Part shown: positions 15,680 through 33,100 of the stretch, in pieces | How positions within the stretch are numbered: the first letter of the stretch is position 1 | Layout: every line of letters begins with the position of its first letter | DNA from: Cellulophaga sp. F20128 | Lineage (GTDB): Bacteria; Bacteroidota; Bacteroidia; Flavobacteriales; Flavobacteriaceae | Direction: 5' to 3' | Assembly (NCBI RefSeq): GCF_023015805.1 | Contig: NZ_JALKBA010000003.1 | Span: 186,001-250,000, forward strand | Length of the DNA stretch: 64,000 bases | Position numbers and translations under genes: made by a program | The notes under the pieces: model-generated | The model's database searches: none | What the model saw: only the letters and a program-made list of their open reading frames with translations | Told to the model about the DNA's origin: nothing

Positions 15680-17236
15680 TTATTTTTTAACAGTTTGGTT
15701 TAATTTCTCCCAGTAAGGACCTTCATCTCTTATCGATATCCATTCGGATAGCATAATAGGTTTTAATTTAGCAAGGACATCTTGCTTGGAGGCTATAAGA
15801 TCATTTTTTTGTTCAGGATCTGTTGCCAAATTATACAGTTCAAAGGTTACTGGAATAGAGGTTTTCATCCATTCCATGATCGTAACGTCATCTTTCTTAT
15901 CTGGAAACTGGCCAATAAGGGTATAATCATTATATCGCATAGCCATATGTGGCATTCTAAAATAGGTATCCTCATGTGTAGGGAAAAGCCATAGATATGG
16001 TTTTTCTCTTTCTATTTTTTGCCCTAGAAAGGCAGGGAAAGCATCGACTGCATCTAACTTTAAATCGTTAGGGATTGGCACGCCTGCTAGGGCGGCGGCA
16101 GTGACTATAAAGTCAGTGGCTACAACCATTTCATCACTGGTTGTACCTGCTGTAATTTTAGCAGGGTAACGCACAATACCTGGTACTCTATGTCCGCCTT
16201 CGTAGGGGTACCTTTTCATTCCTCTTAAAGGGCCAGGCGTTCCAAAACAGAAATCGCGAATTGGATCTTCCCATTCCCCTTTAGATTCTTCTAGGTTAAC
16301 GGGAGTTTCTGGGCCATTGTCACTAGTAAAAATAACCATGGTATTTTCAGTTAAATTTTGGTTCTCAACTGTTTGTAGTAAGTTGTCAAAAGCTTTGTCT
16401 AATTGTGAAATAGTACCGTAATATTCTTTTTTGTTTGCGCTAATATCATAATCAGGTCTTGCTACGCCACCGTAGCTAATAGATTGCTCTAAACTGTCTA
16501 CTGTTGCATTATTATACATTTCGCTATACGCTTCTGGTGGAGCAAGTGGAGTGTGAGGTTCATGAGTAGAAACAATAAGAAAGAAAGGTTTACTCTTGTC
16601 TCTTTTATTAGTGATCCAATCTGATGCTTCCTCAGTTAATACATCACAATACCATCCATCTACTTCACCAACATCTTCACCATTTCTAATGAATTTTCTG
16701 AAATTTTTAGGACCTTGAAATGCATTATGGGTAGAAGCAAACCAATAGTCGAAGCCTTGGTCACTAGGACTAGGTTCTTTGGCTCTTGTAGTTTTTTCTA
16801 ATCTAGAAAGGTGCCATTTTCCCATAAAAGCAGTTTCGTACCCTCCTGATTTTAGGAGTTCTGCAATGGTTAATTCACTATCTCTTAAATGTGTACCCGC
16901 ATACCCTTGTAGGTAATAAAACCCACTCCTATAAGGGTTTTTTCCGGTTAAGAGTCCAGCCCTAGACGGAGAACATACCGTTCCTGCAGAGTGTAAATCT
17001 GTAAGTAAAACACCTTCAGAAGCAAATTTATCTATACCAGGTGTTTTAACAATAGGGTTACCATAAACACCTAAGTCACCATAACCCAAATCATCAGTGA
17101 GGTATATAATTATATTGGGTTTTATGGCTACTTCCTCTTTATGTTCTTTTTCCTTTTTTTTAGTATTGCAACTAAAAGTTAGGGTTACTATTAAAAAAAG
17201 AAATGCGTATTGTATTAATTTAAAAGGTTTTCTCAT
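15680..17236 (-). CDS. Sulfatase S1 family lipoprotein, tandem copy 1
   Basis: 518-residue sulfatase with formylglycine Cys88 in CSPSRAGLLTG and calcium Asp residues in YLTDDLGYGDLG. The lipobox is TFSC (Cys23), followed by a Lys/Glu-rich linker that is longer than in the paralogue. It aligns end to end with the next gene, and most differences lie in the C-terminal third (for example DKKDDVTIMEWMKTSIPVTF against EKTKERSIMEWMKTSTPVRF). A recent duplication with possible change of sulfate position or flanking-sugar preference is likely. It follows the symporter gene by 32 bp in the same operon. Confidence 0.92.
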   Translation of the reverse strand: MRKPFKLIQYAFLFLIVTLTFSCNTKKKEKEHKEEVAIKPNIIIYLTDDLGYGDLGVYGNPIVKTPGIDKFASEGVLLTDLHSAGTVCSPSRAGLLTGKNPYRSGFYYLQGYAGTHLRDSELTIAELLKSGGYETAFMGKWHLSRLEKTTRAKEPSPSDQGFDYWFASTHNAFQGPKNFRKFIRNGEDVGEVDGWYCDVLTEEASDWITNKRDKSKPFFLIVSTHEPHTPLAPPEAYSEMYNNATVDSLEQSISYGGVARPDYDISANKKEYYGTISQLDKAFDNLLQTVENQNLTENTMVIFTSDNGPETPVNLEESKGEWEDPIRDFCFGTPGPLRGMKRYPYEGGHRVPGIVRYPAKITAGTTSDEMVVATDFIVTAAALAGVPIPNDLKLDAVDAFPAFLGQKIEREKPYLWLFPTHEDTYFRMPHMAMRYNDYTLIGQFPDKKDDVTIMEWMKTSIPVTFELYNLATDPEQKNDLIASKQDVLAKLKPIMLSEWISIRDEGPYWEKLNQTVKK

Positions 17237-17268: not shown

Positions 17269-18882
17269 TCATTGAAATATAAAATATAATATTCCAATAG
17301 TTACTAATAAGAGACCGGCATACAATCGCACATCCTTAAGGCCAGTAAATTCTTTATTTGTTAGGAATTGTAATGGATTATCCCAAGTGTATTTTAATTG
17401 TTCAATATTAGGTTTTGGTGTAGCATAACTAATTGTAAAATACACTACTGAACAGATACAGAATAACCACCAAGCTTGCATCATAAATGGTATTCCCCAG
17501 AGGTCTGTTATTATACTGGGTTGTTCTGAAAGTGTGGGTATGAAATCTGCAGAAAATGCAGCTATTCCCAATAGAAACCCAAAGATTAAAGTAACTAATG
17601 ATGCTTCTTTTGTTCCTCGTTTACTAAAAACACCAAAGAGGAATACAGTTGCAATTGGTGGTGCCAAAGCAGCAGCAATTTTATTAATTGCTTCAAAAAT
17701 ACTATTAAATCTTCCTCCCTGAGTAGACCAAGCTATGGCTAATATCATAACTACAACCGCAACATACTTTCCTATTTGTACTTGTTTTTTATCCGATAAT
17801 GAAGGTTTTATTCTTTTTGCGATATCAATTGCTACTAAGGTAGAACAACTATTAAGGGCTGCAGCAATGGTACTCATTAGGGCTGATAATAAAGCAGCGG
17901 CAAAAATACCCTTAATTCCGATTGGTAATAATTCATTTATAAGTACAGGTAAGGTTTCATTACTATCTGTTATCTTGTCTTTAAATAAAACATAACCTAG
18001 TACGCCTGGGAGCACCATAATAAATACAGGCAATATTTTTAAAAATCCGGCAAAAATCGGACCTTTTTGAGCATCATCTTCGCTTTTTGCAGCTAAAACC
18101 CGTTGAACTATAGTTTGGTCTGAACACCAATACCAAAGGCCTAAAATGGGATAACCTAAGAAAATAGCATACCAAGACAAGCCGGAATTACCGGCATTAT
18201 CTCCGCTTCTGAGCATACTTAATTGGTCTGGTTTTATATTCTCTTTTAAATCAGCTAAGGAGTTAATGCCAACCTCGGGGAGTTCATTAATTGCGAATAT
18301 AGTGAGGATTACAGCGCCTACAATTAGAACTACGGTTTGCACTGTTTCTGTCACCACAACAGCTTTTAAACCTCCTAAAATTGTGTAGGTTGCGGTTATA
18401 ACAGAAATTATTAATATAGAAACAAAAACATCGATCCCGAAAAAGGATTTAAATACGATAGCCCCAGCATAAAGACTCATTCCAATATGGACAAATAACG
18501 CACCAATGATAGCCATAAATGCTAAAAAAGAACGTGATGAAGACCCGTATCTTTTTTCTAAAAATTCAGGCAAAGTTGAGATTCTACTTTTAAAGTAAAA
18601 AGGAGCAAAAATGAGCCCTAAAAATATAAGGACAATAGAGGCCATCCATTCAAAATTACCCCAAACCAAGCCATCTTCAAAGCCTGAAGCAGCCAATCCT
18701 ACTAAATGAATTGTAGATATATTACTAGCAAAAAGAGCAGCACCAATTACAATCCAATTTAAACTACGCCCTGCTAGGAAATAGTTATCGGAGGTCATCT
18801 TTGTTTTTCTTGTAGTATAAATACCAAGTGCAACTATACCTATTAAATAAACTACTATTATTGCTAAATCTATATTTTCCAT
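17269..18882 (-). CDS. Sodium/solute symporter (SSS/SGLT family)
   Basis: 537-residue inner-membrane Na+-coupled symporter with the 13-14 hydrophobic segments of the family. It starts at MENIDLAIIVVYLIGIVALG and shows DNYFLAGRSLNWIVIGAALFA, RISTLPEFLEKRYG and ALLSALMSTIAAALNSCSTL, which are SSS signatures. The substrate is probably the monosaccharide freed in the periplasm, and L-galactose is the best guess from context. It sits between the aldo/keto reductase (1 bp gap) and the first tandem sulfatase, so uptake and first oxidation are tightly co-expressed. Confidence 0.9.
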   Translation of the reverse strand: MENIDLAIIVVYLIGIVALGIYTTRKTKMTSDNYFLAGRSLNWIVIGAALFASNISTIHLVGLAASGFEDGLVWGNFEWMASIVLIFLGLIFAPFYFKSRISTLPEFLEKRYGSSSRSFLAFMAIIGALFVHIGMSLYAGAIVFKSFFGIDVFVSILIISVITATYTILGGLKAVVVTETVQTVVLIVGAVILTIFAINELPEVGINSLADLKENIKPDQLSMLRSGDNAGNSGLSWYAIFLGYPILGLWYWCSDQTIVQRVLAAKSEDDAQKGPIFAGFLKILPVFIMVLPGVLGYVLFKDKITDSNETLPVLINELLPIGIKGIFAAALLSALMSTIAAALNSCSTLVAIDIAKRIKPSLSDKKQVQIGKYVAVVVMILAIAWSTQGGRFNSIFEAINKIAAALAPPIATVFLFGVFSKRGTKEASLVTLIFGFLLGIAAFSADFIPTLSEQPSIITDLWGIPFMMQAWWLFCICSVVYFTISYATPKPNIEQLKYTWDNPLQFLTNKEFTGLKDVRLYAGLLLVTIGILYFIFQ

Positions 18883-18883
18883 G

Positions 18884-19846
18884 TTAATCGTTGTATGAGC
18901 CGAAATCGAAGTCTATATTTCTCAATGGTTCTAAGATGGAACAAACTTCTTGAATTACGGTATCATCGAGCGGTTCCTCAATCCAATCGACATTTTTGCC
19001 AAGAATTTGTGCATTGGTACAGCTAAATAAGGTTGTGGGTATTTCAACATTGCTCAAGGCAAACTGTAATGCAATTTTCTCAAAAGTAACATTGTGTTGC
19101 GAGCAAAATTGAATCGCTTTATTAATGCAGCAAATTTCTTTAGAGGTTACAGGGTACCAGTCTGGAGGCCCTTGATGTGTTAATAACCCACTAGCGAAAG
19201 GAGAAGCACTGATTAATCCCATTTTTTTAGCTTTTATTTTTGGCATTAAATCTAGTAATAAATCATTAATTAGTGTATAATGATTGTGAACTAAAATGGC
19301 ATCCATATCATAATTTTGAATTACTTTTTGTAAGACATCAACAGAATAACAAGAAATGCCAAAATTCCTAATTTTTCCTTCCTTTTTTAATTGGGTAAGG
19401 GCATTTAGCCCTTCGCTCATGGCAAGGTTTAAATGCATTCCTTTATTGTATTCGATATCATGTAAAAAAACGATGTCTATATAGTCTGTTTGTAACCGCT
19501 TTAAGCTAGATTCAACAGAATTTATAATGGAGTTGTATTTAAAATTAAATTCCGGTGGTAAGGAAGCATTTTTCCCTGCTTTTGTAGATAAGACAATTTT
19601 AGAACGATCAATATCTTTAAGCCCTTTACCCAAGATGATTTCGGAGGTAACTGGACCAAAAATGGAACTATTTCTTCCATAAGCTGGCGAGGTATCAAAA
19701 TAATTTATACCTCTATCAAATGCACTGTGAATGGTATTAAGTGCATCACTTTCATTTATCTTTTCGAACATGCCACCAAGTCCTGAAGCTCCAAAACCCA
19801 ATTCACTTACTAGTAAGTCAGTTTCTCCTAATGTATTATAGTTCAT
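18884..19846 (-). CDS. Aldo/keto reductase: probable L-galactose (L-fucose) dehydrogenase
   Basis: 320-residue cytosolic aldo/keto reductase. The catalytic tetrad is visible as Asp51 and Tyr56 (NYFDTSPAYG), Lys89 (LSTKAGK) and His129 (VFLHDIE). The N-terminus (YNTLGETDLLVSELGFGASG) and GKGLKDIDRSKIVLSTKAG match the group that includes plant and bacterial L-galactose dehydrogenase and bacterial L-fucose dehydrogenase, which oxidise C1 of the sugar to a lactone. The start is 6 bp after the zinc dehydrogenase stop and the stop is 1 bp from the symporter start. The neighbouring lactonase supports a sugar-to-lactone reaction. L-galactose is favoured over L-fucose because the next enzyme in the operon suits L-galactonate. 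Confidence 0.82.
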   Translation of the reverse strand: MNYNTLGETDLLVSELGFGASGLGGMFEKINESDALNTIHSAFDRGINYFDTSPAYGRNSSIFGPVTSEIILGKGLKDIDRSKIVLSTKAGKNASLPPEFNFKYNSIINSVESSLKRLQTDYIDIVFLHDIEYNKGMHLNLAMSEGLNALTQLKKEGKIRNFGISCYSVDVLQKVIQNYDMDAILVHNHYTLINDLLLDLMPKIKAKKMGLISASPFASGLLTHQGPPDWYPVTSKEICCINKAIQFCSQHNVTFEKIALQFALSNVEIPTTLFSCTNAQILGKNVDWIEEPLDDTVIQEVCSILEPLRNIDFDFGSYND

Positions 19847-19852: not shown

Positions 19853-20890
19853 TTAGTTTTCTATGATGATTTTTATATCATTTAGTGAGCAGGAAGCCTT
19901 TTCTATAGCATCTGGAATTCTATCGTACGGAAATCGATCAGAAATAATCTGAGTTAAATCTATTTGTTTGGTTTGTAAAAGTTCTAGGGCTTTTTCGTAC
20001 TCATTATTAAAACGAAAAGACGGTTGGTATGTTAATTCGTTTTTCATAAAGGCTGCAAAAGGAAATTGTGCACCATCTCCAAACATTCCTAATTGAATTA
20101 CTTTTCCTCCTTTTTTTAAAAATTTCACAGAATTGGTTAATATAGTATTGGCACCTGAGGCTTCCAGTAAAATATCATATCCTTCCGGAGCATAGGATAT
20201 TACCTCTGTTTCAAAATTGGAGTTTTTTGGATTTAGGGCCGCAGTTGTTCCAATTTCTTGTGCTTTTTCTAAGGCAGAATCTCTGATGTCTGTAATTACA
20301 ACGGCTTCATCTGTGTAGAGATTGGCAACCATATGACACAACTGACCAATAGTTCCTGCGCCTGTGATTAAAACAGATTTTCTTTTGATGTCACCTGCTA
20401 AGGATAGGGCGTGTAGAACCACAGAAAGTGGTTCTAAAAGAGCCGCAGTTTCAAAACTGATAAAATCTTCAAGAGTCACACAATTTTCCGCAGGTATTTT
20501 AATGTATTCAGAAAACCCTCCATTAAGATGTGGGTAAACACTTGCGGATCCAATGTATTTCATATCGGGACATAAATTCTGCTTTCCAGCTTTACATGTA
20601 GTACATGTTTTACAGGGTCTAGACGGATTGATACTTACTCTGGTTCCAATTTTTAGCCTTGGGTGTAATGGAGATGCTTTTTCTATAACGCCAGAAAATT
20701 CATGACCCAAAGCAAAGGGTTCTTTTGGAATAAAATCTCCAATTTTACCATCCTTGTAATAATGAATGTCTGAGCCACAAATTCCTACAGATTTCACTTT
20801 TACTATAACTTCATGATTTTCAGTAGGTTCTGGGTATGGTATATCGGAATAACGGACATCTTTTTTTCCGTATAATAAGAATGATTTCAT
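19853..20890 (-). CDS. Zinc-dependent alcohol dehydrogenase: probable L-galactonate 5-dehydrogenase
   Basis: 345-residue medium-chain zinc dehydrogenase of the sorbitol/L-idonate/L-galactonate type. Catalytic zinc ligands are Cys38 (GICGSDIHYY), His63-Glu64 (LGHEFSG) and Glu153 (LLEPLSV). Four structural-zinc Cys lie at 93, 96, 99 and 107. The NAD(P) site is GAGTIG at about 177-182, followed by an acidic residue after the second strand (VVITDIRD), which favours NAD+. In E. coli (LgoD/YjjN) and B. vulgatus (Bvu0222) enzymes of this family oxidise L-galactonate to D-tagaturonate, which enters the hexuronate pathway. Placement between GH95 and the aldo/keto reductase suits that role. A 2-keto-3-deoxy-L-fuconate dehydrogenase role is the main alternative. 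Confidence 0.8.
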   Translation of the reverse strand: MKSFLLYGKKDVRYSDIPYPEPTENHEVIVKVKSVGICGSDIHYYKDGKIGDFIPKEPFALGHEFSGVIEKASPLHPRLKIGTRVSINPSRPCKTCTTCKAGKQNLCPDMKYIGSASVYPHLNGGFSEYIKIPAENCVTLEDFISFETAALLEPLSVVLHALSLAGDIKRKSVLITGAGTIGQLCHMVANLYTDEAVVITDIRDSALEKAQEIGTTAALNPKNSNFETEVISYAPEGYDILLEASGANTILTNSVKFLKKGGKVIQLGMFGDGAQFPFAAFMKNELTYQPSFRFNNEYEKALELLQTKQIDLTQIISDRFPYDRIPDAIEKASCSLNDIKIIIEN

Positions 20891-20892
20891 AT

Positions 20893-23346
20893 TTATTTAA
20901 TCGTGTATGTTTTACCTTTAACGGTAGCAAATTCTATAGTTTGGTTGGGTTGTTTTTTTGTTTTAACCTGCTTACCATCTACATAAACTTTGGTGTTTTT
21001 TGCCGCTTTAATACGACAAACAGTACCCGCTTTTGACAAGATATCTACAGTGGTAATTTTTTGATCTTTCCAACTAAAATTAAGCTCAAATCCGCCTCTG
21101 GCTACAACACCATTAAATTGACCTTCGAACCATTCACCTGGTAAGGCTGGCAATAGGTCTATATAGCCTTCATGGGACTGAATTAACATTTCTGTAATAC
21201 CAGCGGTTACTCCAAAAGAGCCATCAACCTGCAGTGGTTTGCCACATTTAGCAAATAGAGAGGTGTAGCACTGTTCCTTTAGATATCCTTTAAAAATACT
21301 GTTAGCCCTGTCGCCATCATAAAGCCTTGCCCATAGTGCCATTTTCCATGCTCTTGAAAATCCAGTTCCGCCATCGCCACGTTGCTCTAATACTTTTTTT
21401 ACGGGCCCTATAAATTCAGGGGTTCTATTCGATGAAATAACGTTTCCAGGATATAAACCATAGAGATGAGAAAAATGTCTGTGTTTATCTTCCATTTGTT
21501 CATAATCCTTAGTCCACTCTTGCAACATACCATCTTTTCCTATTTGTGATGGAGGGAAACGTTTTCTAGCTTCTGATACCTTCTTTGCGAATTCCGTGTC
21601 TACACCTAAGACCTTAGCTGCCGAGTTGTAATAGCTAAATAAATCTTTTAATATTTGCATATCCATAGTTGCGCCTGCAACTATAGTAGTGAAATAATAC
21701 ATTCCAGTTACCTCATCATAAAAGTATTTGTATCCTTTTCCTTTTGGCGGATTCTCAGGGGAATTTGATGGGTTGGTTACCAACCAACCAGTTCCGGGGT
21801 ACTCAACAAGAAAATCCATAAAAAATTCAACAGACCCTTTCATTGTAGGGTAGATTTCCTCTAGGTATTCTTTGTCTTGTGTAAAAAGATAATGTTCCCA
21901 CATATGGGTAGTTAGCCATGCACCGCCAACAGTAAACGTTCCCCAAGTAGGTCCGTCCATTGGAGCAGCAACTCTCCATAAATCTGTGTTTTGATGAAAT
22001 ACCCATCCTTTTGCGCCGTAGTGCTCTTTAGCTACTTCAGAACCTTGATCTGTTAGTTCTTTAATCATTGTGGTTAATGGCTCAGTAAGTTCAGATAAAT
22101 TAGCGCTTTCAGCAGCCCAATAATTCATTTCAGTATTAATATTGGTTGTGTATTTGGAGTCCCAAGCCGGATTCATATCATTATTCCAAATTCCTTGCAA
22201 GTTGGCGGGTTGAGTGCCGGGTCTAGAAGAAGAAATAAGAAGGTAACGCCCAAAGTTATAACACAATGTCGCTAATTGGGGGTCAGGGTTCGATTGTATT
22301 TCTGTCATTCTCTCATCTGTAGTAAGGTAAGAGTTTTCCGTTGTTGGTAGGGTCAGGGATACCCTGTCAAAATAATTTTTGTAATCTTTAAGGGCTAATT
22401 TTTTAATGTTGTCGTAATTGGTATTCTCTACATGGGCTAGCATGTTTTGTACGCGTTCATGTTCATTTGCGCTAACATCTTTGTAGTTTACAAAATTTGT
22501 GGCCGCTACAAAATATAAAGTAACTGAATTTGCATTTTTTATAGATAGGATTGTATCATCACGTTGCATTTCCCCGCCATCTTGATAGGCTTTAATCTGC
22601 GCTTCGTATCTTAACTTTCCATCTACACCCATATAATCTGTAGATTTTCCAGTTAATTTTAGTTGATTTTCTCCTATGCCATCCATTCTAAAGTAATCCG
22701 TTGCATAGTTGGAGTGAGATCCGTTTCTAACCCCCCTTAGCTGAGCCTCTAGTGATATACTTTTAGGTTTGTCGGCTGTAATCCTAATTGCAATAGTTTG
22801 ATCTACGGCAGAAGCAAAAATTTCTCTTTTAAAATTAACTCCATTCGTAGTATAAGTTACACTAACGATTCCTGTTTTTAAATCTAAGGACCTTTTGTAA
22901 TTTACTACACTGTCTTTTTTGAAGTTCAAATGAAGGTTTGCTAAGGATTGGTATTTTTGTTGTTCTACAGGATACCCCATAAGTGCACGTCCAAATAGCT
23001 TATGAGCTTTTATTGGCTCGTCATTGAATAGATATTCTTGAATTTCTGGAAGTTTTTTAAAGCCTCCTTTTGTAACCGTAGAATAAGGGCCGCCAGACCA
23101 GTAGGTTTCTTCATTAAACTGAATCTTTTCCTCATCCTGTTTTCCATAAACCATTGCACCAATACGACCGTTACCAACAGGTAAAGCTTCTTCCCAAATG
23201 GTTGCAGGTTCGTCAAACCACAGTACAGTTCCTGGATCAAAATCACTTTGTTTGGTTGTACTAACTGTTGCCGTATCCGCAGTTTGGCCTATACTAACGA
23301 CCGTGATACATAAAAAATAGAAAAATAAGAAATGCTTTGTGTTCAT
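20893..23346 (-). CDS. GH95 enzyme with Thr-type active site: candidate alpha-L-galactosidase 2
   Basis: 817-residue GH95 enzyme with a Sec signal peptide ending near VVSIGQ. It shares most of its sequence with the gene at 24104-26554. The catalytic pair is Asn402 and Asn404 in KYTTNINTEMNYW, with the general-acid Glu in MLQEWTKDY and the base-activating Asp in LQVDGSFGV. Thr400 replaces the His found at this place in fucosidases, the change I recall for the Bacteroides ovatus alpha-L-galactosidase BACOVA_03438. Glu406 replaces the usual Gln of the QMNYW motif, which the sister enzyme keeps. It starts a transcription unit that continues 2 bp later into the zinc dehydrogenase, after a 757-bp gap without a convincing gene. 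Confidence 0.88.
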   Translation of the reverse strand: MNTKHFLFFYFLCITVVSIGQTADTATVSTTKQSDFDPGTVLWFDEPATIWEEALPVGNGRIGAMVYGKQDEEKIQFNEETYWSGGPYSTVTKGGFKKLPEIQEYLFNDEPIKAHKLFGRALMGYPVEQQKYQSLANLHLNFKKDSVVNYKRSLDLKTGIVSVTYTTNGVNFKREIFASAVDQTIAIRITADKPKSISLEAQLRGVRNGSHSNYATDYFRMDGIGENQLKLTGKSTDYMGVDGKLRYEAQIKAYQDGGEMQRDDTILSIKNANSVTLYFVAATNFVNYKDVSANEHERVQNMLAHVENTNYDNIKKLALKDYKNYFDRVSLTLPTTENSYLTTDERMTEIQSNPDPQLATLCYNFGRYLLISSSRPGTQPANLQGIWNNDMNPAWDSKYTTNINTEMNYWAAESANLSELTEPLTTMIKELTDQGSEVAKEHYGAKGWVFHQNTDLWRVAAPMDGPTWGTFTVGGAWLTTHMWEHYLFTQDKEYLEEIYPTMKGSVEFFMDFLVEYPGTGWLVTNPSNSPENPPKGKGYKYFYDEVTGMYYFTTIVAGATMDMQILKDLFSYYNSAAKVLGVDTEFAKKVSEARKRFPPSQIGKDGMLQEWTKDYEQMEDKHRHFSHLYGLYPGNVISSNRTPEFIGPVKKVLEQRGDGGTGFSRAWKMALWARLYDGDRANSIFKGYLKEQCYTSLFAKCGKPLQVDGSFGVTAGITEMLIQSHEGYIDLLPALPGEWFEGQFNGVVARGGFELNFSWKDQKITTVDILSKAGTVCRIKAAKNTKVYVDGKQVKTKKQPNQTIEFATVKGKTYTIK

Positions 23347-23480
23347 GTTATTGAATTTTTTTTTTAAAAAAACTGTGCTTCTCAGAAATAATTTTGGCGT
23401 TAATCAAATTGGTTAATCTTATAATTTTTTTTAATATAGTAAGCTATTCAAGGTGTCAATTTTTTCTGGTTGTATAGTCT

Positions 23481-23520
23481 AAAAAAAAGGAGTAGCAGAG
23501 ATAAATCTGGTGCTACTCCT
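23481..23520 (-). terminator. Intrinsic terminator inside the GH95 gap (minus strand)
   Basis: Read on the minus strand, AGGAGTAGCA and TGCTACTCCT form a 10-bp perfect stem (plus-strand arms about 23488-23497 and 23511-23520), followed by eight T residues. It terminates minus-strand transcription before the GH95 gene at 20893-23346, although no gene is seen between it and the next terminator at 24055. Confidence 0.75.
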
Positions 23521-24054
23521 AACTAAACTAATTCAACTCAAAATAAAAACTATAATTTAATTTATATCAAGCTACTAATTCCATAATTATGTACTTTATA
23601 TAATCTTAATTGGTAGTTGATAATATTTAGTATTACTCTATTAAATCTTACCATTATTACTATAGTATTAGCTGTCTTACGGCTTGTATTTTTAAACGTT
23701 TTTCTACAGTAAGAACTAGAATATAAATTTAAGAATATTAGAAGTATAATAGTAGGCTTATGTTGACATTAGACTGTACTATTTTGTTTATTTAAGTCCT
23801 TGAAGTGTTTTTTTAATGGATTTGGGTAAGTTATTCAAAAGTTTAATCAAGAAGTATACAGTATTTTGTGGTATTAGCTTTGATTGTAACTCCTAAATTT
23901 TTAGAGATTGAATTTAATGTAATAATTAATTTAGAAAATGCCGTAATAAAGTTTGATAAGTGGGAAGAGAATCTCTTGATTGGTCTCAAGTTTATTCAAC
24001 AAGGTAGCATAACCTTTTTTGTAGTATTAATGAGAAGAATAGTCATTGCTTTAT

Positions 24055-24090
24055 AAAAAAGGTTCCTTGGCATTTCCAAAGAACCTTTTT
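24055..24090 (-). terminator. Intrinsic terminator after the first PUL-B GH95
   Basis: AAAAAGGTTCCTTGG (24056-24070) pairs with CCAAAGAACCTTTTT (24076-24090) around a five-base loop with a single mismatch. It starts 13 bp after the GH95 stop on the minus strand and is followed by a T-run, so the unit from susC to this GH95 ends here. Confidence 0.8.
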
Positions 24091-24103
24091 GTCACCACTG
24101 ATT

Positions 24104-26554
24104 TTAAATGTTTGTAACAGTATATGTTTTTCCTTTTTTTGTGTTGAATGTTATTAACCCGTTATTAAGTCTCTTGAATACTACTTGTTTGCCTTCAGAA
24201 ATGACTTTTGTTTTAGTTCCAGCTCTTAAAGAGCAGGGCATACCTGCTTTGGATAAGATGGTAGCTGAAGTTATTTTTTGATCTTTCCATTTAAAGTCTA
24301 GTTCAAAGCCTCCTCTTGCACATACACCGTCAAATTGACCGTCTGTCCATTCTAATGGTAATGCAGGTAATAAATCGATATAGCCTTCATGGGATTGAAT
24401 TAGCATTTCAGTAACCCCAGCAGCTACTCCAAATGAGCCATCTACTTGGAATTGATTGGCACAGATTGCGAATAGTGATGAATAAGCTTGATCATTTAAA
24501 TAGCCTTTGAATATTTTATTAGATCTATCGCCATCACGGAGTCTAGCCCATAAATTCATTTTCCATGCTCTAGACCATCCAGAAGCTTCATCACCTCTTA
24601 GTTCCAATACTTTTTTTACTGGTTCAATTAATTCCGGGGTTTTATCAATAGATATTACATTGCCAGGGTATAAACCATATAAATGAGAAGCATGTCTGTG
24701 ATTTGGTTCCATTTGTTCATAATCCTCAGTCCATTCTTGAAGCGTACCGTCTTTACCTACCTGTGAAGGAACTAATTTACTTCTTGCTTCAAGAACTTCC
24801 TTAGCAAATTCTTTATCCTTTCCTAAAACTTCTGTGGCAGAAGCATAATAATTAAAAAGATCTTTTAGAATTTGCATATCTATGGTAGAACCAGCAACTA
24901 TGGTGGTAAAGTAATACATACCCGTTATTTCGTCATAGAAGTATTTATACCCTTTTCCTTTTGGTGGATTTTCTGGTGAATTTGATGGATTGGTTACCAA
25001 CCAATCTTGTCCAGGGTATTTAACTAGGAAGTCCATAAAAAATTGAACAGAACCTTTCATTGTTGGATAAAATTCTTCTAGAAATTCTTTGTCTTGTGTA
25101 AAAAGATAGTGTTCCCACATATGTGTTGTTAACCAGGCGCCGCCAACGGTAAAAGTACCCCAAGTAGGGCCATCCATTGGAGCAACTACTCTCCATAAGT
25201 CAGTGTTTTGATGGAAAACCCAGCCTCTTGCCCCATAAAGCTCCTTCGCTGCTTGTGAACCTTGGTCGGTAAGTTCTTCTACCATAGTGGTTAAAGGTTC
25301 TAATAACTCTGGAAGGTTGGCAGTCTCTACAGCCCAATAATTCATTTGAATATTTATATTGGTGGTATATTTGGAATCCCAAGCTGGGTTCATCTTATTG
25401 TTCCAAATACCTTGTAAATTAGCGGGTTGGGTGCCTGGTCTTGAGGATGATATTAGAAGGTAACGACCAAAGTTATAGGCTAGACTAGCTAATTGAGGGT
25501 CAGGATTAGTTTGCACGTTCTTCATCCGTTCGTCTGTGGGAAGGAAAGAGTTTTCCGTAGTAGGTAAAGTAATAGAAACTCTGTCAAAAAACTTTTTGTG
25601 GTCGTTTAAGGCATCGACTTTGATGTTGGCATATGAACGTTGCTCTAATTTTGCTAACATTTTTTCAACTAAGGCATGTTGGTCAGCGCTTACATCTTTG
25701 TAATTCACAAAATTTGTTGCAGCTACAAAATATAGGGTTACTGCATTGGCATTTTTAATGCTAAGTACAGTATCGTCAATTTCTATAGTTCCACCTTCAG
25801 GTATAGCCTTTATTCTAGCTTCGTAACGTAATTTACCTTCTACTCCTAGATAGTCAGCAGATTTCCCAGTTAATTTTAATTGATTGTTATCAACTCCGTC
25901 CATTCGAAAATAATCAGTGGCATAATTAGAATGAGCATTGTTTCTTACGCCTCTAAGTTGCGCATCTAAAGTTATACTTTCCGGTGTATCGGCAGTAATA
26001 CGTATTGCAATTGTTTGGTCTATAGCTGAAGAAAATACTTCTCGGGTATAATTTACGCCTTTGTGTTTATATTTTACTGTAACCACACCCGTTTTTAGAT
26101 CTAAAGATCTTACATAGTTTTGTACACTATCTACTTTGAAAGATAGGTGGAGGTTTGCCAATGATTGATATTTCATTTGTTCAACAGGCATACCCATCAT
26201 AGTTCTGCCAAAGAGCTTATGAGCTTTTATAGGTTCACCGTTAAAGATAAGTTGTTGAATTTCTGGTAAGTTTTTGTAAGCACCTTTATTTACGGTATTA
26301 TAAGGGCCTCCAGTGTAATAGGTGTCTTCGTTAAATTGTATTATTTCTTCTCCTTGTCTACCATACACCATACCCCCTAATCTACCATTGCCAACAGGTA
26401 AGGCTTCTTCCCAAATAGAAGCAGGCTTAGAGTACCACATGACTGTAGCTGGGTCAAAATTATTTTGAGAGTTTATACTTTTATTGTTTTGACCGATGGA
26501 ACTATAGCCATAGATAAGAAAAAGAGTAAGAATTAATATTTTATTTGCCTTCAT
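24104..26554 (-). CDS. GH95 enzyme with Thr-type active site: candidate alpha-L-galactosidase 1
   Basis: 816-residue GH95 enzyme with a Sec signal peptide (start MKANKILILTLFLIYGYSS, cleavage near SIGQ). The N-terminal domain has WYSKPASIWEEALPVGNGRL. The catalytic Asn residues are Asn399 and Asn401 in KYTTNINIQMNYW, the acid Glu is in TLQEWTEDY and the Asp in FQVDGSFGV. Thr397 stands where fucosidases have His, pointing to alpha-L-galactosidase or broader specificity. It follows the sulfatase by 37 bp and is probably co-transcribed with susCD. The close paralogue 757 bp downstream shows a local duplication. Alpha-L-fucosidase remains possible, since a single residue supports the switch. Confidence 0.88.
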   Translation of the reverse strand: MKANKILILTLFLIYGYSSIGQNNKSINSQNNFDPATVMWYSKPASIWEEALPVGNGRLGGMVYGRQGEEIIQFNEDTYYTGGPYNTVNKGAYKNLPEIQQLIFNGEPIKAHKLFGRTMMGMPVEQMKYQSLANLHLSFKVDSVQNYVRSLDLKTGVVTVKYKHKGVNYTREVFSSAIDQTIAIRITADTPESITLDAQLRGVRNNAHSNYATDYFRMDGVDNNQLKLTGKSADYLGVEGKLRYEARIKAIPEGGTIEIDDTVLSIKNANAVTLYFVAATNFVNYKDVSADQHALVEKMLAKLEQRSYANIKVDALNDHKKFFDRVSITLPTTENSFLPTDERMKNVQTNPDPQLASLAYNFGRYLLISSSRPGTQPANLQGIWNNKMNPAWDSKYTTNINIQMNYWAVETANLPELLEPLTTMVEELTDQGSQAAKELYGARGWVFHQNTDLWRVVAPMDGPTWGTFTVGGAWLTTHMWEHYLFTQDKEFLEEFYPTMKGSVQFFMDFLVKYPGQDWLVTNPSNSPENPPKGKGYKYFYDEITGMYYFTTIVAGSTIDMQILKDLFNYYASATEVLGKDKEFAKEVLEARSKLVPSQVGKDGTLQEWTEDYEQMEPNHRHASHLYGLYPGNVISIDKTPELIEPVKKVLELRGDEASGWSRAWKMNLWARLRDGDRSNKIFKGYLNDQAYSSLFAICANQFQVDGSFGVAAGVTEMLIQSHEGYIDLLPALPLEWTDGQFDGVCARGGFELDFKWKDQKITSATILSKAGMPCSLRAGTKTKVISEGKQVVFKRLNNGLITFNTKKGKTYTVTNI

Positions 26555-26591: not shown

Positions 26592-28205
26592 TTAATTGAT
26601 GTTCGTGTTTTTTAGCTGTATTGAAAGTGGGTTGTTTGTTTTATATGTTTCTCTTTCTAAGTTTTTTTTCTCGGATTGTTGTGCTGTTTTACGTCTTAAC
26701 TCATTTAAAATTTTAGAGCCTTCATAATCACCTATTATGTTATTCATTTCATTTGGGTCATCCTTTAAGTTGAATAATTGTTCAAACGCTATGGTTTTTT
26801 CTTTAAAATCAATATCATTTTCTGTCCAGCTCCATTTGTGATGCTCATACATTCTAATGTATTTCCAATCGCCTACTCGTATGCCTTCAGAAAAAGGGTT
26901 GTCTCTTCCCGTAAATAAGCTCTCTAGAAAGAGTTCTTTTCTCCATTCATCTGTAGTACCATTTATTAATGGTATTAAACTTCCGCCTTGCATATCTTCG
27001 GCAGGTTTTATTCCTGCATAATCTAGAATTGTAGATGGGATATCAATAGTTGAAACTAATTCTTCGATTTTTATTCCTCTCTTGTTTTTAGGAAGCCTAG
27101 GGTCATAAATGAAAAACGGTATTTTACTGGCCTTGTCATACAATAAAGCTTTTCCAGACATTCCATATTCTCCCATCAAAAGGCCGTGATCACTGGCAAA
27201 AATTATGATGGTATTATCACTTAACCCTTTTTCTTCTAGGGATGCAACCATATCTCCAATTACTTTGTCCATAGCGGATATTTGCTGATAATAGCGAACG
27301 TAATGTTCCTTACAGCTTTCTATTTCATAATCATATTTGTAAGTGCCTGTGGCTCTTCCTTTCGTTTGGTCAAGCACGTTTTTTGGGATATGAATATAAG
27401 GGTTTGTAGCAGTTTCTTCAGGGATGGATATGTTTACATCTCTGTATAAAGTATCGTAAAATGGCATGCCTTTTAATTTAGAATACTCATTAGCGTGAAC
27501 CCTGCATCTTGCGGCTATTTTATTGTCTGGGTACATAGATGCTATTTGGCTGCCGTGGGGTACAGAAAAACTTACTGATAAAGTAAACGGTTTGTTTGTG
27601 GGAACAGTGTTTAGGAAATCTTCAATTTTTTCTCCCATAATTGGGGTAATGATTTCAGATTTGGCATCTGAATAAATTTCAAAACCCTCAACTCCTTTTG
27701 GCCAGAAATCTGCCCAACCGTCATGTGCTGCCCAGTAGTCAAATTTCTCAGAAGTTTGTCCTTTAAATGTATAATACTCAAGACCAAATTTACCTACAAA
27801 ACCAGAATAGTATCCATTAGATTTAAGTACATGTGGGTACGAATTTTTCCATTGATTTTCTGTGATTTGATAGCTCGATGAAAAGCCTACACCATGCACT
27901 CGTTGATACATTCCTGTAAATATTGAGACTCTACTAGGAGAGCATACAGGTGCTACGGCGTAGGTATTATTAAACCAGACACCATCATTAATTAGTTTAT
28001 CTGCATGAGGGGTTTTTAAAACGGGGTGCCCCATAGCACCGAAAGTTTTATCGCGTTGATCGTCTGTTAGTAAAAAAATAATGTTTGGCCGTTCATTGCT
28101 TGGAACCCTAGGGAGTTCTTTTTTTAAGGAAACACTAGTAACCCATAATACACCAACGGATAGGGTTAATAGCGATGGTATAATCTTGTTTACTTTCATA
28201 TGCAT
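26592..28205 (-). CDS. Sulfatase S1 family (distinct from the tandem pair)
   Basis: 537-residue sulfatase with formylglycine Cys88 in VCSPSRVSIFTG, calcium Asp residues in FLLTDDQRDKTFG, and IIFASDHGLLMGEYG near the C-terminal half of the active site. Outside these motifs it differs strongly from the tandem sulfatases, so it is a different S1 subfamily and should attack a different sulfate position or be exo/endo different. An N-terminal hydrophobic stretch (about 9-26) acts as a signal peptide or anchor and I see no clear lipobox. Two in-frame starts lie two codons apart (MHM), and the second is equally likely. It is the first enzyme gene after susD of PUL-B, beyond a long perfect hairpin. 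Confidence 0.88.
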   Translation of the reverse strand: MHMKVNKIIPSLLTLSVGVLWVTSVSLKKELPRVPSNERPNIIFLLTDDQRDKTFGAMGHPVLKTPHADKLINDGVWFNNTYAVAPVCSPSRVSIFTGMYQRVHGVGFSSSYQITENQWKNSYPHVLKSNGYYSGFVGKFGLEYYTFKGQTSEKFDYWAAHDGWADFWPKGVEGFEIYSDAKSEIITPIMGEKIEDFLNTVPTNKPFTLSVSFSVPHGSQIASMYPDNKIAARCRVHANEYSKLKGMPFYDTLYRDVNISIPEETATNPYIHIPKNVLDQTKGRATGTYKYDYEIESCKEHYVRYYQQISAMDKVIGDMVASLEEKGLSDNTIIIFASDHGLLMGEYGMSGKALLYDKASKIPFFIYDPRLPKNKRGIKIEELVSTIDIPSTILDYAGIKPAEDMQGGSLIPLINGTTDEWRKELFLESLFTGRDNPFSEGIRVGDWKYIRMYEHHKWSWTENDIDFKEKTIAFEQLFNLKDDPNEMNNIIGDYEGSKILNELRRKTAQQSEKKNLERETYKTNNPLSIQLKNTNIN

Positions 28206-28364: not shown

Positions 28365-29816
28365 TTAATCAACATCCCACCAAACACCAGCACCAAATTT
28401 TTCGTCTATAATACCGGGTTGTGCTTCTAAGGCACCATTGAAACCATCTGGGTTAGAAACAGCTTCTGTATGTGGGTATGGTTTTCTAACCATTATTCCT
28501 TTTCCTGGAAAAAGGGATTCAACTGGTTCTGTGGTTGCTACATATGTAGGGTATCCAGAACGGCGAACTTCTGCCCAGCCTTGATTTCCATCAGGGTATA
28601 GTGCACACCATTTTTGATCACCAATTAATTCCCGTTGATCTTCTCCTCCGTTAAAATCAACTAGTGGTTCTGATAGATAGCTACCAGGTTCTAAGCCATA
28701 TTCATTAAAACTTGCAGTGATTGCTGCTTCATAGGCCTCTTGTGCAGTCATCCCTACATTCCATCCGTTTAATGCGGCTTCGGCAATAATAAAAAGGACT
28801 TCAGAATAACGCATTATTCGGGTAGGGGAATCTAAGGATCTAAATTCTGCTACCCCCATTATTGATAAATCTGGGGTGTTTTGTCCCAATGTTCCCAGTG
28901 GAATACCTACATATTCTCCTGAGCTAGCAGCAGGTTCCGCATAGACGGCTAATCGATCTGTGTCATTTCTGGTTTTCAAAAAATCAATTAGAAAAGCAGA
29001 GGTTACATTTTCTTGTTTAGCAGCTTGGGTAGGGTTCATATAGTAAGGACTACGGTATACTGCGTCATCGGCCAACCAATATTTGAACGCCGCGTTTTCA
29101 TTAGAATCTATTATAGGATACGTGTTAGAATCAGCCATAATTTCTTCAATACCATTTTGTGCAGTAATAGGGTCTTTTAGAGACATTCTCATATACACAC
29201 GTAGTAGTAGGGAGTTAGCAAATCTTTTCCATTGCAACATATCTCCATTAAAAATAACATCAGCAGAACCGATATTTTTTGATGCATCGATCATTGCATT
29301 GGCCGATTTTAATTGAGCTATAATATCGGTGTAAATGCTTTGTTGTGAATCATATTTTGGGTATATGGTTGCATTTTCAGAACTGTCCGCATTTAATGCC
29401 TCAGAGTAAGGAATATCTCCATACCAATCGGTTAAATTTTGAAATGCGTATGAAGTTAAGATTTTAGCTACCGCTATAGCATTATTATCTTCAGCTTCAG
29501 AGGCTAGTTTAGTGGCAACTTGTAAATTTTTAAGATGCCCGCTATACACATTGAAATTTGTTTCACTTCCCGTCATCTGATATCTGTCATTATGTACGTA
29601 TACATCACGGACATTATACCTAGCCCAGCTTACCACTTCATTTATTACAGGGTTGTAAGAATTTAAAATGCTTATTTGTGCATTTGTAATAAGTGTTTTA
29701 TAGGGTACCTCCGTTAAGCTATTGGGACTTGTGTTTATACTTTGGAAATCATCTGTACATGCAACTGTGAAAGTGAGAAGTACACTAGCGCATAATAGTT
29801 TTATATGTGTTTTCAT
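28365..29816 (-). CDS. SusD-like glycan-binding lipoprotein (PUL-B)
   Basis: 483-residue SusD-family lipoprotein of the shorter SusD-like-2 type. I chose the ATG at 29816 because it starts a clean lipoprotein signal (MKTHIKLLCASVLL, lipobox TVAC, Cys20). An upstream in-frame start at 29849 would overlap the end of susC and bury that signal. The mature protein begins TDDFQSINTSPNSLTEVPYK, typical of this subgroup, and carries IAVAKILTSYAFQNLTDWYGDIPYSEAL and RIMRYSEVLFIIAEAAL. It pairs with the SusC encoded 45 bp upstream. It is only distantly similar to the SusD proteins of PUL-A and PUL-C. Confidence 0.93.
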   Translation of the reverse strand: MKTHIKLLCASVLLTFTVACTDDFQSINTSPNSLTEVPYKTLITNAQISILNSYNPVINEVVSWARYNVRDVYVHNDRYQMTGSETNFNVYSGHLKNLQVATKLASEAEDNNAIAVAKILTSYAFQNLTDWYGDIPYSEALNADSSENATIYPKYDSQQSIYTDIIAQLKSANAMIDASKNIGSADVIFNGDMLQWKRFANSLLLRVYMRMSLKDPITAQNGIEEIMADSNTYPIIDSNENAAFKYWLADDAVYRSPYYMNPTQAAKQENVTSAFLIDFLKTRNDTDRLAVYAEPAASSGEYVGIPLGTLGQNTPDLSIMGVAEFRSLDSPTRIMRYSEVLFIIAEAALNGWNVGMTAQEAYEAAITASFNEYGLEPGSYLSEPLVDFNGGEDQRELIGDQKWCALYPDGNQGWAEVRRSGYPTYVATTEPVESLFPGKGIMVRKPYPHTEAVSNPDGFNGALEAQPGIIDEKFGAGVWWDVD

Positions 29817-29860
29817 TTTGTTATTTGATTTAAAATTATAATGAATCATACCTTGAAATA

Positions 29861-32800
29861 CTAAAAAGTAATTTTTACTCGTGCCCCAATATTTCTAGCT
29901 GATGGGTTAGAGGCAAATTCTGAACCTTGTGAAGATAAACTGGCATCTTTGTTTGATACTTCGGGATCAAAGTTTTCACTTTTCTTATATAATATGGCTA
30001 TGTTTCTTGCGAATATTGATAAATCGATATTCTTTAGTTTAAGTTTGTTTGCAAATGATTTTGGCATTGAATAACTCAAAGTCATTTGACGTAGTTTAAC
30101 ATATGAAGCATCGTATAACCATCTTTCTGCTCTTGCAAATGAGTTCCATCTAAAATCATCTAAATTTTTATAGACATCATTTGGCGTTCCGTCTTCAAAA
30201 ACACCTTCAAATAAATACCCACCTCCAGCATCTAGTGGGTCCCTTACTGAAACCCCATTAGCATTTTGGCCAATCGTACTGGTAAGTGCACCTGTTGCCC
30301 ATCCGTCCTGATTGGTTCTTGAGTAAATATTTCCTCCTATTTTAGCATCAATTAAGAAACTAAAGTTAACGTTTCCAAATGTAAGGGAGTTGTTAATGCC
30401 GCCTACCCAATCAGGCATAAGGCTTCCTAGTTTTTTTAGATCACTTGTTAAGGGAACGCCATTTGCATCTACAATTGGTTTTCCATTTTCGTGGTAAACA
30501 AAACCTTTGCCCCACATATCACCATAGGAGCCTCCTACGTCTGCAACTACAATTATTTGATTGCCTTCCGCTTTAAATAACTCTAATCTTTCCACGTCTC
30601 CATTGAGCGCAACTATTTTACTGGTGTTTGTACTCCAGTTTACCGTAACATCCCAAGAGAATTTATCAGTAAGGATTGGTGTTCCATTTAAAATTACTTC
30701 AGCACCTTTATTGTCTACTTGTCCTGCATTAATGGTTTGTGAGGTATAGCCTGATGTCGGAGAAATTGGAGCGCTTAATATTTGATTTTTAGCCACCGAA
30801 TTGTATAAGGTAAGATCTAATCCAAGCCTGTTATTAAAAAACTTTACATCAAAACCAAGTTCCTTAGATGTTACTAGTTCATTAACTAAGTCAGCTGGCG
30901 GCATTACAGAGCTTAGGCTAAATGAAGGGTTATTCCCATAAGGTGATGATGCATTGTAGATTGAGTTTAATCTATACGGGTCAGTATCATTACCAACTTG
31001 GGCTATACTTAAACGTAATTTACCAAAACTAACTACATTTCTATCTAAATTAAAAGTTTCAGAAAAGATCCAACTGGTTGTAGCAGATGGGTAGAAATAG
31101 GAATTGTTAGCAGCTGGTAAGGTTGTAGACCAGTCGTTACGCCCTGTTAAATCAAGGTAAAGTTGATTTTTATATCCAAATGAAAATGCGGCATACATAC
31201 TTTGGATTTCTTTTTCTCTTTGATAAAAAGTAGTCGTTGGAGTTTCTTTTGCATTGGATAAAGAGTAAACGTTTGGTACAACTAGTTTGTCTACATATGA
31301 ATCTTGCAGTCTAAACTTGTTATTCATAATGCTACCACCAACGTTTGCGGAAAACGAAATATCATCTGATATGTTTTTGTTGGCAGAAAGAAGGAAATCT
31401 GAATTTATTTCTTGGCGGAAGTAATTACTTACACTGTATCTACCTTCTGGATCATTGTTGCTGTAATAAGCACGTATTAATTCTACTTGTTCATTTGAAT
31501 AATCAATACCAGCTCTAGTAGTTAAGCTCAACCAGTCATTAAATTGGTACTTCAAAGAAGTAGAACCAATCATTCTATTTTTAGTTTGTGGATTTAGATT
31601 TTTATACTGGGTCCAGTATGGGTTATTGTGCCATCTGTCAATCCAGCTAATCATAGTTCCATCAGGATTCTCTATATTATTTTTTAAGTACTCCCAGTCT
31701 ACCTGTCTGGCTGTCCATATCGTTTGCATTCCAATATTGTTAAAGGTGTAGCCAGATCCGTTAAGATTACCATTTGAATTGATATAAGAAGCTTTGGTGT
31801 CAAAAGAAAGTTTGTCTGTTAGTTTAGTGCTTCCTGAAAAATTAATTGTATTCTTTACTTGGTTGGTGTTTGGCACCATTCCTGTTTGGTCAGAATTAGT
31901 AATGGATAAACGAATGTTTCCCCAACTACCACTATTGCTTAACGCAGCGTTGGTAACACGTGTTATGCCAGTTTCATAAAAGTTCTTTATGTTGTTTGGG
32001 TTTGAAACCCATGGTGTTGGAATTCTTTCGCCAGTAACTGGGTCAAGAGGTGAATTAAATTGTGGGAGTGATAAAATTTCACCTACAGTTTGAGGAAATC
32101 CAGCCTCTACGGCCCAATATAATTTACCCCCAGGGGTAATATCATCTGCTTGAACCCTATAGTCTAGGCGTGGTCCAAAACTTTCGTCTACACCATCATT
32201 TTTACCTCCATTTAAACCATCTTCGTACCAGTATTGTAAACCACCTCCTTGACCATATTCATTTTGATAGTCGGGAAGTAAGAGTGGATTGCTTAAGGTT
32301 AATGAGTTTTCAATGGAAACAGAAAACCCTTTTCCCTTACCTGATTTTGTGGTAATAAGTACTACTCCATTTGCTCCCCTTGATCCATATAGAGCTGCGG
32401 CATTTCCTCCTTTTAATATAGTTACTTCAGCGATATCAGATGGGTTTATGTCGGCAGCCCCACTTCCCATATCCGTAAAATCATACCCACCTCTAGTACT
32501 AGAAACAATAGTATTGTCAATAGGAATACCATCTACTACAAACAAAGGTTGATTGTCTCCAGTTAAAGACTGATTTCCTCTAATTGTAATCCTTGACGAT
32601 GCCCCAACATTACCATTTGAACTATTTACAAGGACTCCTGCCGATTTTCCTGCCAAGGCATTAATGACATTAGTTTCAGACGTGTTTTTAATGTCGTCAC
32701 CAGATAAATCTTGTACCGCATAGCCTAAGGCTTTTTTCTCTCTAGTTATACCAAGAGCGGTTACAACAACTTCCTTTAGGGATTCTACGTCAGGTTGCAT

Positions 32801-33100
32801 ACTTATATTGATTGTTGTTTTTGAATTAACGGAAACAACTTGCTCTAGATAACCTACATAACGATATATTAGCATATCACTTGAATTAGCAGTGATACTA
32901 TACTTGCCGTCCATATCGGTTGTAGTTCCTTGTCCTGAATTTTTGGTAATTACAGTGACACCCAACATTGGAATGCCTTCCTCATCTGTAATTGTACCAG
33001 AAACGGTAGTGCTTTGGGCTAATAATGTCCCAGAGAAAAACAGTGATATTCCCAAAAGAAATAGCTGTTTTACTAAATGTTTTTTTAGAGTGTTTTTCAT
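29861..33100 (-). CDS. SusC-like TonB-dependent transporter (PUL-B)
   Basis: 1079-residue complete SusC. A signal peptide ends near GTLLAQ. The carboxypeptidase-D-like domain (about 32-107: VSGTITDEEGIPMLGVTVI, DMDGKYSITA) is followed by the Ton box region (EVVVTALG) and the plug (about 120-255, with RITIRGNQSLTG, PLFVVDGIPIDN, GANGVVLITTKSG). The rest is barrel, ending in RNIGARVKITF. It imports the oligosaccharide captured by the adjacent SusD. The 216-bp region upstream holds an 11-bp direct repeat that could be the regulator site. No anti-sigma-contacting N-terminal extension is present, which fits control by a cytosolic AraC regulator and not by an ECF sigma/anti-sigma pair. Confidence 0.95.
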   Translation of the reverse strand: MKNTLKKHLVKQLFLLGISLFFSGTLLAQSTTVSGTITDEEGIPMLGVTVITKNSGQGTTTDMDGKYSITANSSDMLIYRYVGYLEQVVSVNSKTTINISMQPDVESLKEVVVTALGITREKKALGYAVQDLSGDDIKNTSETNVINALAGKSAGVLVNSSNGNVGASSRITIRGNQSLTGDNQPLFVVDGIPIDNTIVSSTRGGYDFTDMGSGAADINPSDIAEVTILKGGNAAALYGSRGANGVVLITTKSGKGKGFSVSIENSLTLSNPLLLPDYQNEYGQGGGLQYWYEDGLNGGKNDGVDESFGPRLDYRVQADDITPGGKLYWAVEAGFPQTVGEILSLPQFNSPLDPVTGERIPTPWVSNPNNIKNFYETGITRVTNAALSNSGSWGNIRLSITNSDQTGMVPNTNQVKNTINFSGSTKLTDKLSFDTKASYINSNGNLNGSGYTFNNIGMQTIWTARQVDWEYLKNNIENPDGTMISWIDRWHNNPYWTQYKNLNPQTKNRMIGSTSLKYQFNDWLSLTTRAGIDYSNEQVELIRAYYSNNDPEGRYSVSNYFRQEINSDFLLSANKNISDDISFSANVGGSIMNNKFRLQDSYVDKLVVPNVYSLSNAKETPTTTFYQREKEIQSMYAAFSFGYKNQLYLDLTGRNDWSTTLPAANNSYFYPSATTSWIFSETFNLDRNVVSFGKLRLSIAQVGNDTDPYRLNSIYNASSPYGNNPSFSLSSVMPPADLVNELVTSKELGFDVKFFNNRLGLDLTLYNSVAKNQILSAPISPTSGYTSQTINAGQVDNKGAEVILNGTPILTDKFSWDVTVNWSTNTSKIVALNGDVERLELFKAEGNQIIVVADVGGSYGDMWGKGFVYHENGKPIVDANGVPLTSDLKKLGSLMPDWVGGINNSLTFGNVNFSFLIDAKIGGNIYSRTNQDGWATGALTSTIGQNANGVSVRDPLDAGGGYLFEGVFEDGTPNDVYKNLDDFRWNSFARAERWLYDASYVKLRQMTLSYSMPKSFANKLKLKNIDLSIFARNIAILYKKSENFDPEVSNKDASLSSQGSEFASNPSARNIGARVKITF

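Follow-up and report, generated by a model that had tools for sequence, protein, structure and literature searches.

Tandem Thr-type GH95 enzymes of Cellulophaga sp. F20128 belong to a distinct clade and adjoin predicted sugar-oxidation and peptidase genes

Introduction

The window analyzed here, a stretch of 64,000 nucleotides from Cellulophaga sp. F20128, encodes four GH95 enzymes: two in PUL-A carry His and two in PUL-B, GH95-B1 and GH95-B2, carry Thr at the residue two positions before the first catalytic Asn (Table 1). A preliminary description had taken Thr at this site as the sign of an alpha-L-galactosidase and assigned that activity to the PUL-B pair. The question raised by this locus is whether a single residue can reveal which sugar the pair removes and, if not, what the gene context suggests in its place.

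Results

Identity, catalytic residues, and fold of the GH95 enzymes

All four GH95 enzymes are full-length, with scores of 462 to 584 bits against the Pfam GH95 catalytic model (cut-off, 27); the PUL-B pair, at 544 and 538 bits, also carries both flanking N- and C-terminal domains. The motifs given in the preliminary description were recovered from the ORFs, namely, YTTNIN in both PUL-B enzymes (Y399-T400-T401-N402-I403-N404 in GH95-B1 and Y396-T397-T398-N399-I400-N401 in GH95-B2) and YHTNIN and YHLNVN in PUL-A. In the alignment, the general acid of GH95-B1 is Glu531, which is followed by a loop of 25-26 residues. Both members of the pair are probably exported, as judged from their N termini by eye. 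They are 74% identical. The two sit in separate sub-branches of the GH95 tree, each with an Arenibacter relative, so that the tandem does not stem from a recent copy.

An AlphaFold2 model of GH95-B1, the member of the pair chosen for modeling (pLDDT, 87.6; pTM, 0.90), has the GH95 three-domain fold, and its best 15 Foldseek rows were all chains of GH95 proteins. Of these, 7KMQ, a fucosidase, ranked top but was practically tied with 2RDY and the galactosidase 4UFC (TM to query, 0.86-0.87). The sugar pocket was compared by sequence alignment only.

The tandem genes are separated by a gap of 757 bp (23347-24103) in which inverted-repeat-like sequence was seen by eye. A promoter and terminator scan found promoter-like sites there at chance level (5 versus 5.1 expected), and one terminator-like site (0.3 expected) on the strand opposite to the genes. 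The genome has 12 GH95-type matches, among which L009 and L010 have FHHDLN or YHHDLN and Glu at the catalytic Asp position.

Table 1. Features of the PUL-A and PUL-B regions, with positions in the window
Feature	Position	Strand	Remarks
PUL-A GH95, His type (YHTNIN)	6785..9184	+	Comparison gene
PUL-A GH95, His type (YHLNVN)	9191..11608	+	Comparison gene
PhoD-like phosphatase-family protein	11741..13249	-	After sulfatases in three Arenibacter loci too
Amidohydrolase-family lactonase	13261..14106	-	Best NCBIfam L-fucono-1,5-lactonase, 273 bits (below cut-off 400)
Sulfatase (PF00884)	14109..15647	-	
Sulfatase (PF00884)	15680..17236	-	
SGLT/vSGLT-type sodium:sugar symporter	17269..18882	-	
Aldo-keto reductase (AKR)	18884..19846	-	Plant L-galactose dehydrogenase closest among solved structures
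Zn-dependent polyol-type dehydrogenase (Zn-ADH)	19853..20890	-	Best NCBIfam L-idonate 5-dehydrogenase, 285 bits (below cut-off 469); 2 bp after GH95-B1
GH95-B1	20893..23346	-	817 aa; Thr400; Gly702 at O4-His position; Phe663 at Trp655 position
GH95-B2	24104..26554	-	816 aa; Thr397; Ala699 at O4-His position; Trp660 kept at Trp655 position
Sulfatase (PF00884)	26592..28205	-	
SusD-like protein	28365..29849	-	
SusC-like TonB-dependent transporter	29861..33100	-	
M60-like (enhancin-type) metallopeptidase with F5/8 type C domain	33317..35842	-	
Fused L-serine dehydratase	35971..37557	-	
AraC-type regulator with cupin domain	37739..38608	+	
AraC-type regulator	38682..39545	+	
Dipeptidyl peptidase IV (DPP-IV)	39795..42035	+	Nearest 5olj, 377 bits
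M24 peptidase, Xaa-Pro aminopeptidase/dipeptidase kind	42071..43471	+	

The Thr/His site marks ancestry

The literature facts behind the earlier reading are accurate: the Bacteroides ovatus alpha-L-galactosidase BACOVA_03438 has Thr370, and AfcA has His419 with Asn421 and Asn423. Thr370 touches O6 of L-galactose, and T370H abolishes galactosidase activity; the authors nevertheless hedged, since the mutation gave no rise in fucosidase activity (excerpt of PMC4491172). The step from Thr to alpha-L-galactosidase is contradicted by XacAfc95, which has Thr at the site, is very specific to L-fucose, and keeps this preference in T395H, as well as by Blon_2335, another fucosidase with Thr (excerpt of PMC8245568). 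The FucOB paper reaches the same conclusion on Thr/His (excerpt of PMC10063614), and the question is thus already answered in print.

The Thr/His split in the window is real and not due to chance, yet it is not special. In a set of 33 other GH95 proteins, drawn from a Bacteroidia sample and from the same genome with its PUL-A enzymes, the site is Thr in 16 and His in 17; own-genome duplicates (L001, L005, L006, L008, L099, L114, and L124) were dropped from this count, and the alignment excluded the weak own-genome matches L011 and L012 and the fragment L113. A 67-row GH95 tree (49 Thr and 18 His) has one Thr/His change. It was built with every third related-locus sequence (26 of 78), without AfcA, whose residues were taken from papers, and without BT1010, the second proven GH95 L-galactosidase. 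Its Thr side holds XacAfc95 and 8ZBV (both named as fucosidases), as well as the galactosidase 4UFC. Because there is one change on the tree and its Thr side includes a proven fucosidase and a proven galactosidase, the residue is a mark of ancestry. As a specificity rule for GH95, Thr is ruled out by the Thr-type fucosidases, the T395H and T370H results, and the single change on the tree; in the pair, it is uninformative on L-galactose versus L-fucose.

A separate GH95 clade with an altered sugar pocket

An alignment of the pair served to search for relatives and gave 391 confirmed stretches, of which the best 80, in 76 loci, were kept. Since the pair itself supplied the search patterns, the set represents its closest kin rather than a fair sample of GH95, and all clade counts below refer to this set. 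Thr is present in all 78 GH95 sequences of these loci, which, together with the pair and one sequence from a further genome, make up 81 clade members. On the 67-row tree, the pair falls in its own clade with an SH-aLRT support of 100 and a long stem. Clustering with proven fucosidases, along with inactivity on alpha-L-galactosides, had been named as grounds for abandoning the L-galactosidase assignment; the clade does share the Thr side of the tree with a proven fucosidase, yet falls outside the branch of that fucosidase, 7KMQ, which is shared with 4UFC (support, 83), so that the pair does not group with BACOVA_03438 either. The clade is present in Bacteroidota and in MAGs labeled Aminicenantes, Armatimonadetes, and Verrucomicrobiae. 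A class-wide sample of 159 genomes, including that of the window, gave GH95 matches at the chosen cut-off in 15 of them, and matches above 60% identity were confined to the window's genome and G031.

Pocket residues are named after FucOB (excerpt of PMC10063614). W378, both Asn, the acid Glu, R612, H613, Q697, and D699 are kept in 81/81 members, and the equivalents of the catalytic set N385, N387, E541, and D699 are therefore intact throughout. As a control for residue mapping, the inactive E541A form, 7ZO0, showed the expected Ala at 541. The exception lies at H693, which bonds O4 of fucose in docking and corresponds to H760 of AfcA (excerpt of PMC10063614): none of the 81 members has this His, with 79 having another residue and two a gap (Gly 42, Phe 20, Ser 6, Ala 5, Tyr 4, Thr 2). 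One member, in L080, has a His one position upstream. Outside the clade, H693 is kept in all 16 of the other Thr-type sequences and 13 of 17 of the His type. The position of Trp655, which in FucOB bonds O3/O4 (excerpt of PMC10063614), is Phe in 44 members and Trp in 37. In addition, the loop after the general acid measures 25-26 residues in all 81 members versus 5-17 in 38 others (five PDB chains included). Loss of the O4-binding His suggests that the -1 subsite may not take ordinary L-fucose or L-galactose, although 8ZBV, titled a fucosidase, likewise lacks it. The GH95 frame of L049 (9875-13942) is 1355 aa long, against a median of 820 aa in its relatives, which suggests an extra domain.

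BACOVA_03438 (4UFC) shares with the pair the family, the fold (TM, 0.86), Thr, and the catalytic Asn pair, Glu, and Asp, with 41.5% identity to GH95-B1 over the aligned stretch; it differs in belonging to another branch, in having the O4-His (so that the -1 subsite is not fully conserved, the pair having Gly and Ala there), and in a loop of five residues, and it acts on corn glucuronoarabinoxylan. XacAfc95 (7KMQ, a Xanthomonas citri alpha-1,2-L-fucosidase) is also of the Thr type, 40-41% identical, and the top-ranked fold match (TM, 0.87), but it retains the O4-His, comes from a xyloglucan context, and is a proven fucosidase. 8ZBV, from Pontiella sulfatireligans, shares Thr at the site and has Gly for the O4-His; it differs in having Asp for the first catalytic Asn, a different branch, and a shorter loop. 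No paper was found under its PDB code. The alpha-1,2-L-fucosidases AfcA (2EAB) and FucOB (7ZNZ) share the family and the mechanism residues, and unlike the pair have His at the polymorphic site and the O4-His.

Sugar-side genes of PUL-B

GH95-B1 is followed by genes for a Zn-ADH (after 2 bp), an AKR (6 bp), and a symporter (1 bp) and then for two sulfatases, a lactonase, and a PhoD-type protein. Intergenic gaps in the two gene blocks are 1-37 bp, apart from two longer ones of 159 and 216 bp. Gene types for a putative aldose dehydrogenase, lactonase, sugar-acid enzyme, and transporter all lie in one operon-like block.

Among solved structures, the AKR matches plant L-galactose dehydrogenase with 208 bits, and the next family with 87 bits. 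Its nearest solved relatives (7LH6 and others) serve ascorbate synthesis, as opposed to the putative catabolic role of the bacterial enzyme. For the Arabidopsis enzyme, affinity is reported as 0.1-0.4 mM for L-galactose versus 56 mM for L-fucose (excerpt of PMC11066809). Another AKR of the genome, which has an enolase-type dehydratase next to it and a distant GH95-like gene in its vicinity, reaches at most 82 bits to L-galactose dehydrogenase. The domain scan found no enolase-type dehydratase among PUL-B genes; six over the cut-off occur elsewhere in the genome, and four of these have another GH95 or GH95-like match no farther than about 10 kb away. The four that were scanned had NCBIfam matches only below cut-offs and are at most putative fuconate dehydratases. 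The L-fucose isomerase C-domain was not found in the genome. A tagaturonate reductase is encoded elsewhere in the genome (653 bits; cut-off, 359); this enzyme serves galacturonate utilization too.

A strong AKR match occurs in only nine of the 76 clade loci, and in nine the AKR is followed by the symporter, all of these being Flavobacteriaceae by record title, with Flavivirga counted as a member of that family. Three Aminicenantes loci (L091, L095, and L096) combine the GH95 gene with a Zn-ADH and an SGLT-like symporter but have, in place of the AKR, an iron-type ADH, its family being established for L095, and a gene that by eye resembles a sugar kinase; DPP-IV is present in L091 and L095 and is not among the listed ORFs of L096. 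Since an iron-type ADH and a kinase-like gene take the place of the AKR there, the sugar may differ across the clade. In four Arenibacter loci (L023, L025, L026, and L027), the PUL-B operon is likewise faced at its end by a GH95 of the PUL-A type, 70-73% identical to that at 9191-11608 and truncated where the locus stops. As this is the arrangement at 9191-13249 in the window, PUL-A and PUL-B are kept together.

Peptide-side genes and their linkage across the clade

PUL-B itself encodes the M60-like peptidase, and adjoining it are the genes for the serine dehydratase, the two AraC regulators, DPP-IV, and the M24 peptidase; the preliminary description made no mention of these peptidases. Across the 76 clade loci, serine dehydratase is found in 30, DPP-IV in 27, M24 in 11, and any of these in 37, with 29 loci missing 4 kb on at least one side; among loci with both flanks, the count for any is 25 of 47. 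The median distance between DPP-IV and the GH95 gene is 66 bp, and the two share a strand in 26 of 27 cases. The controls were 24 other GH95 loci of 20 kb, of which 20 came from 36 other rows of the class-wide sample and four from the same genome; in the latter, the gene is not always central, and the PUL-A genes were left out since they adjoin PUL-B. Serine dehydratase, DPP-IV, and M24 were found in 0, 1, and 0 of these, and any in 1/24 (Fisher p = 3e-5 against 37/76, a value that the shared descent of the loci makes too small). Linkage is better argued from the taxonomic spread, which reaches from Flavobacteriaceae to Aminicenantes. Flavivirga locus L086 unites M24, DPP-IV, both AraC regulators, serine dehydratase, GH95, Zn-ADH, AKR, symporter, sulfatase, and lactonase, so that its peptide half adjoins its sugar half in the same way as in the window. 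A Pfam scan for additional common enzyme families revealed none among the 25 commonest of 144 families in 95 of 115 unclassified same-strand neighbor proteins.

In L047 and L049, a 4-hydroxyproline epimerase scoring over its cut-off has as neighbor a D-amino-acid-dehydrogenase-like protein that scores below its own; L047 further encodes a pyrroline-2-carboxylate reductase over the cut-off, along with a DapA-type protein and an aldehyde dehydrogenase below it. In the window's genome, such an epimerase (609 bits; cut-off, 376) is encoded with a DapA-type protein on another contig, C24, in a probable hydroxyproline catabolic cluster. This cluster (L144; C24, 5001-22000) also contains genes for an AraC regulator and for what by eye looks like an aldehyde dehydrogenase.

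No description of a GH95-peptidase linkage, including one with dipeptidyl peptidase and serine dehydratase, was found in the literature searched, nor was any paper found that treats L-fucose dehydrogenase together with L-galactose dehydrogenase and aldo-keto reductase. For Latescibacteria single-cell genomes, use of hydroxyproline-rich glycoproteins (HRGPs) has been predicted, with GH95 listed among the enzymes for it (excerpt of PMC4454575).

Discussion

Proposed function

The reading preferred here, tentatively and at somewhat less than even confidence, is that the pair are exported inverting exo-glycosidases of a distinct GH95 clade, whose target would be a terminal sugar of L-galacto configuration, most likely alpha-L-galactose, on a sulfated proline/serine-rich glycoprotein. 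In this scheme, the M60-like peptidase would clip the glycoprotein, SusCD would take up the pieces, and the sulfatases and the GH95 pair would trim the glycan. The freed sugar would be imported and oxidized to its lactone, which would be hydrolyzed to L-galactonate; oxidation at C5 would then yield D-tagaturonate for the tagaturonate-reductase route encoded elsewhere in the genome, and the peptide remainder would be finished by the Pro-specific peptidases and serine dehydratase. L-Galactose is favored because the operon combines an L-galactose-dehydrogenase-like AKR, a lactonase, an L-idonate-dehydrogenase-like (polyol-type) enzyme, and an SGLT-type symporter. The preliminary assignment of the pair as alpha-L-galactosidases thus loses its Thr argument, while its L-galactose conclusion may survive on this other evidence. 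Against it stand the absence of the O4-binding His from all clade members, the small number of loci with a strong AKR match, the scores of the Zn-ADH and lactonase below NCBIfam cut-offs, the use of tagaturonate reductase in galacturonate utilization as well, and an L-fucosidase as the top, if practically tied, solved structure. A bolder reading, considered rather unlikely, is that the clade forms an undescribed GH95 subfamily that serves an operon devoted to proline/hydroxyproline- and serine-rich glycoproteins, which it would deglycosylate by means of a rebuilt sugar pocket, acting on a sugar or linkage new to GH95.

Alternative explanations

The pair could instead be alpha-L-fucosidases acting on a sulfated fucose-containing glycan, with the AKR as L-fucose dehydrogenase and the lactonase as L-fuconolactonase. 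Thirteen of 15 characterized GH95 enzymes are listed with fucosidase activity only (Table 2 of PMC10154630, excerpt), the closest fold match is a Thr-type fucosidase, L-fucono-1,5-lactonase is the best model for the lactonase, and 8ZBV combines a fucosidase title with Thr and no O4-His. This alternative is nonetheless unlikely: the enolase-type dehydratase expected for oxidative fucose use lies at other loci of the genome instead of PUL-B, and the AKR is nearest to L-galactose dehydrogenase, whose plant members are poor on L-fucose.

The altered pocket raises a further possibility, that the clade has shifted to another sugar and strips it from Ser or Hyp residues of HRGPs, where the target could be Ser-linked alpha-galactose or a Hyp glycan; it would do so with the pocket rebuilt on its O3/O4 side and with the long post-acid loop. 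The missing O4-His, the Trp-to-Phe replacement, and the invariably long loop would fit such a shift, as would the proximity of DPP-IV and the hydroxyproline epimerases of L047 and L049; moreover, algal HRGPs are reported with Ser-O-alphaGal, a structure given as tentative (excerpt of PMC11015965). The AKR in the window, however, points to an L-sugar, the epimerase is present in only two of 76 loci, and arabinosidase families were not among the 25 commonest families of the 95 neighbor proteins. Moreover, no GH95 enzyme is known to act on D-sugars, and such a shift is considered quite improbable.

Implications and other observations

The present analysis removes an unsafe annotation rule, by which Thr in GH95 denotes an L-galactosidase, and puts a testable clade definition in its place. 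If the preferred reading of the gene context is true, these loci would show how bacteria strip and consume algal or animal structural glycoproteins rich in proline, a type of substrate with few known dedicated bacterial systems, and would provide a linked L-galactose catabolic route. Farther along the window, two large proteins (47757-51086 and 54334-57879) combine DUF7133, ThuA, and plastocyanin-like domains in differing order.
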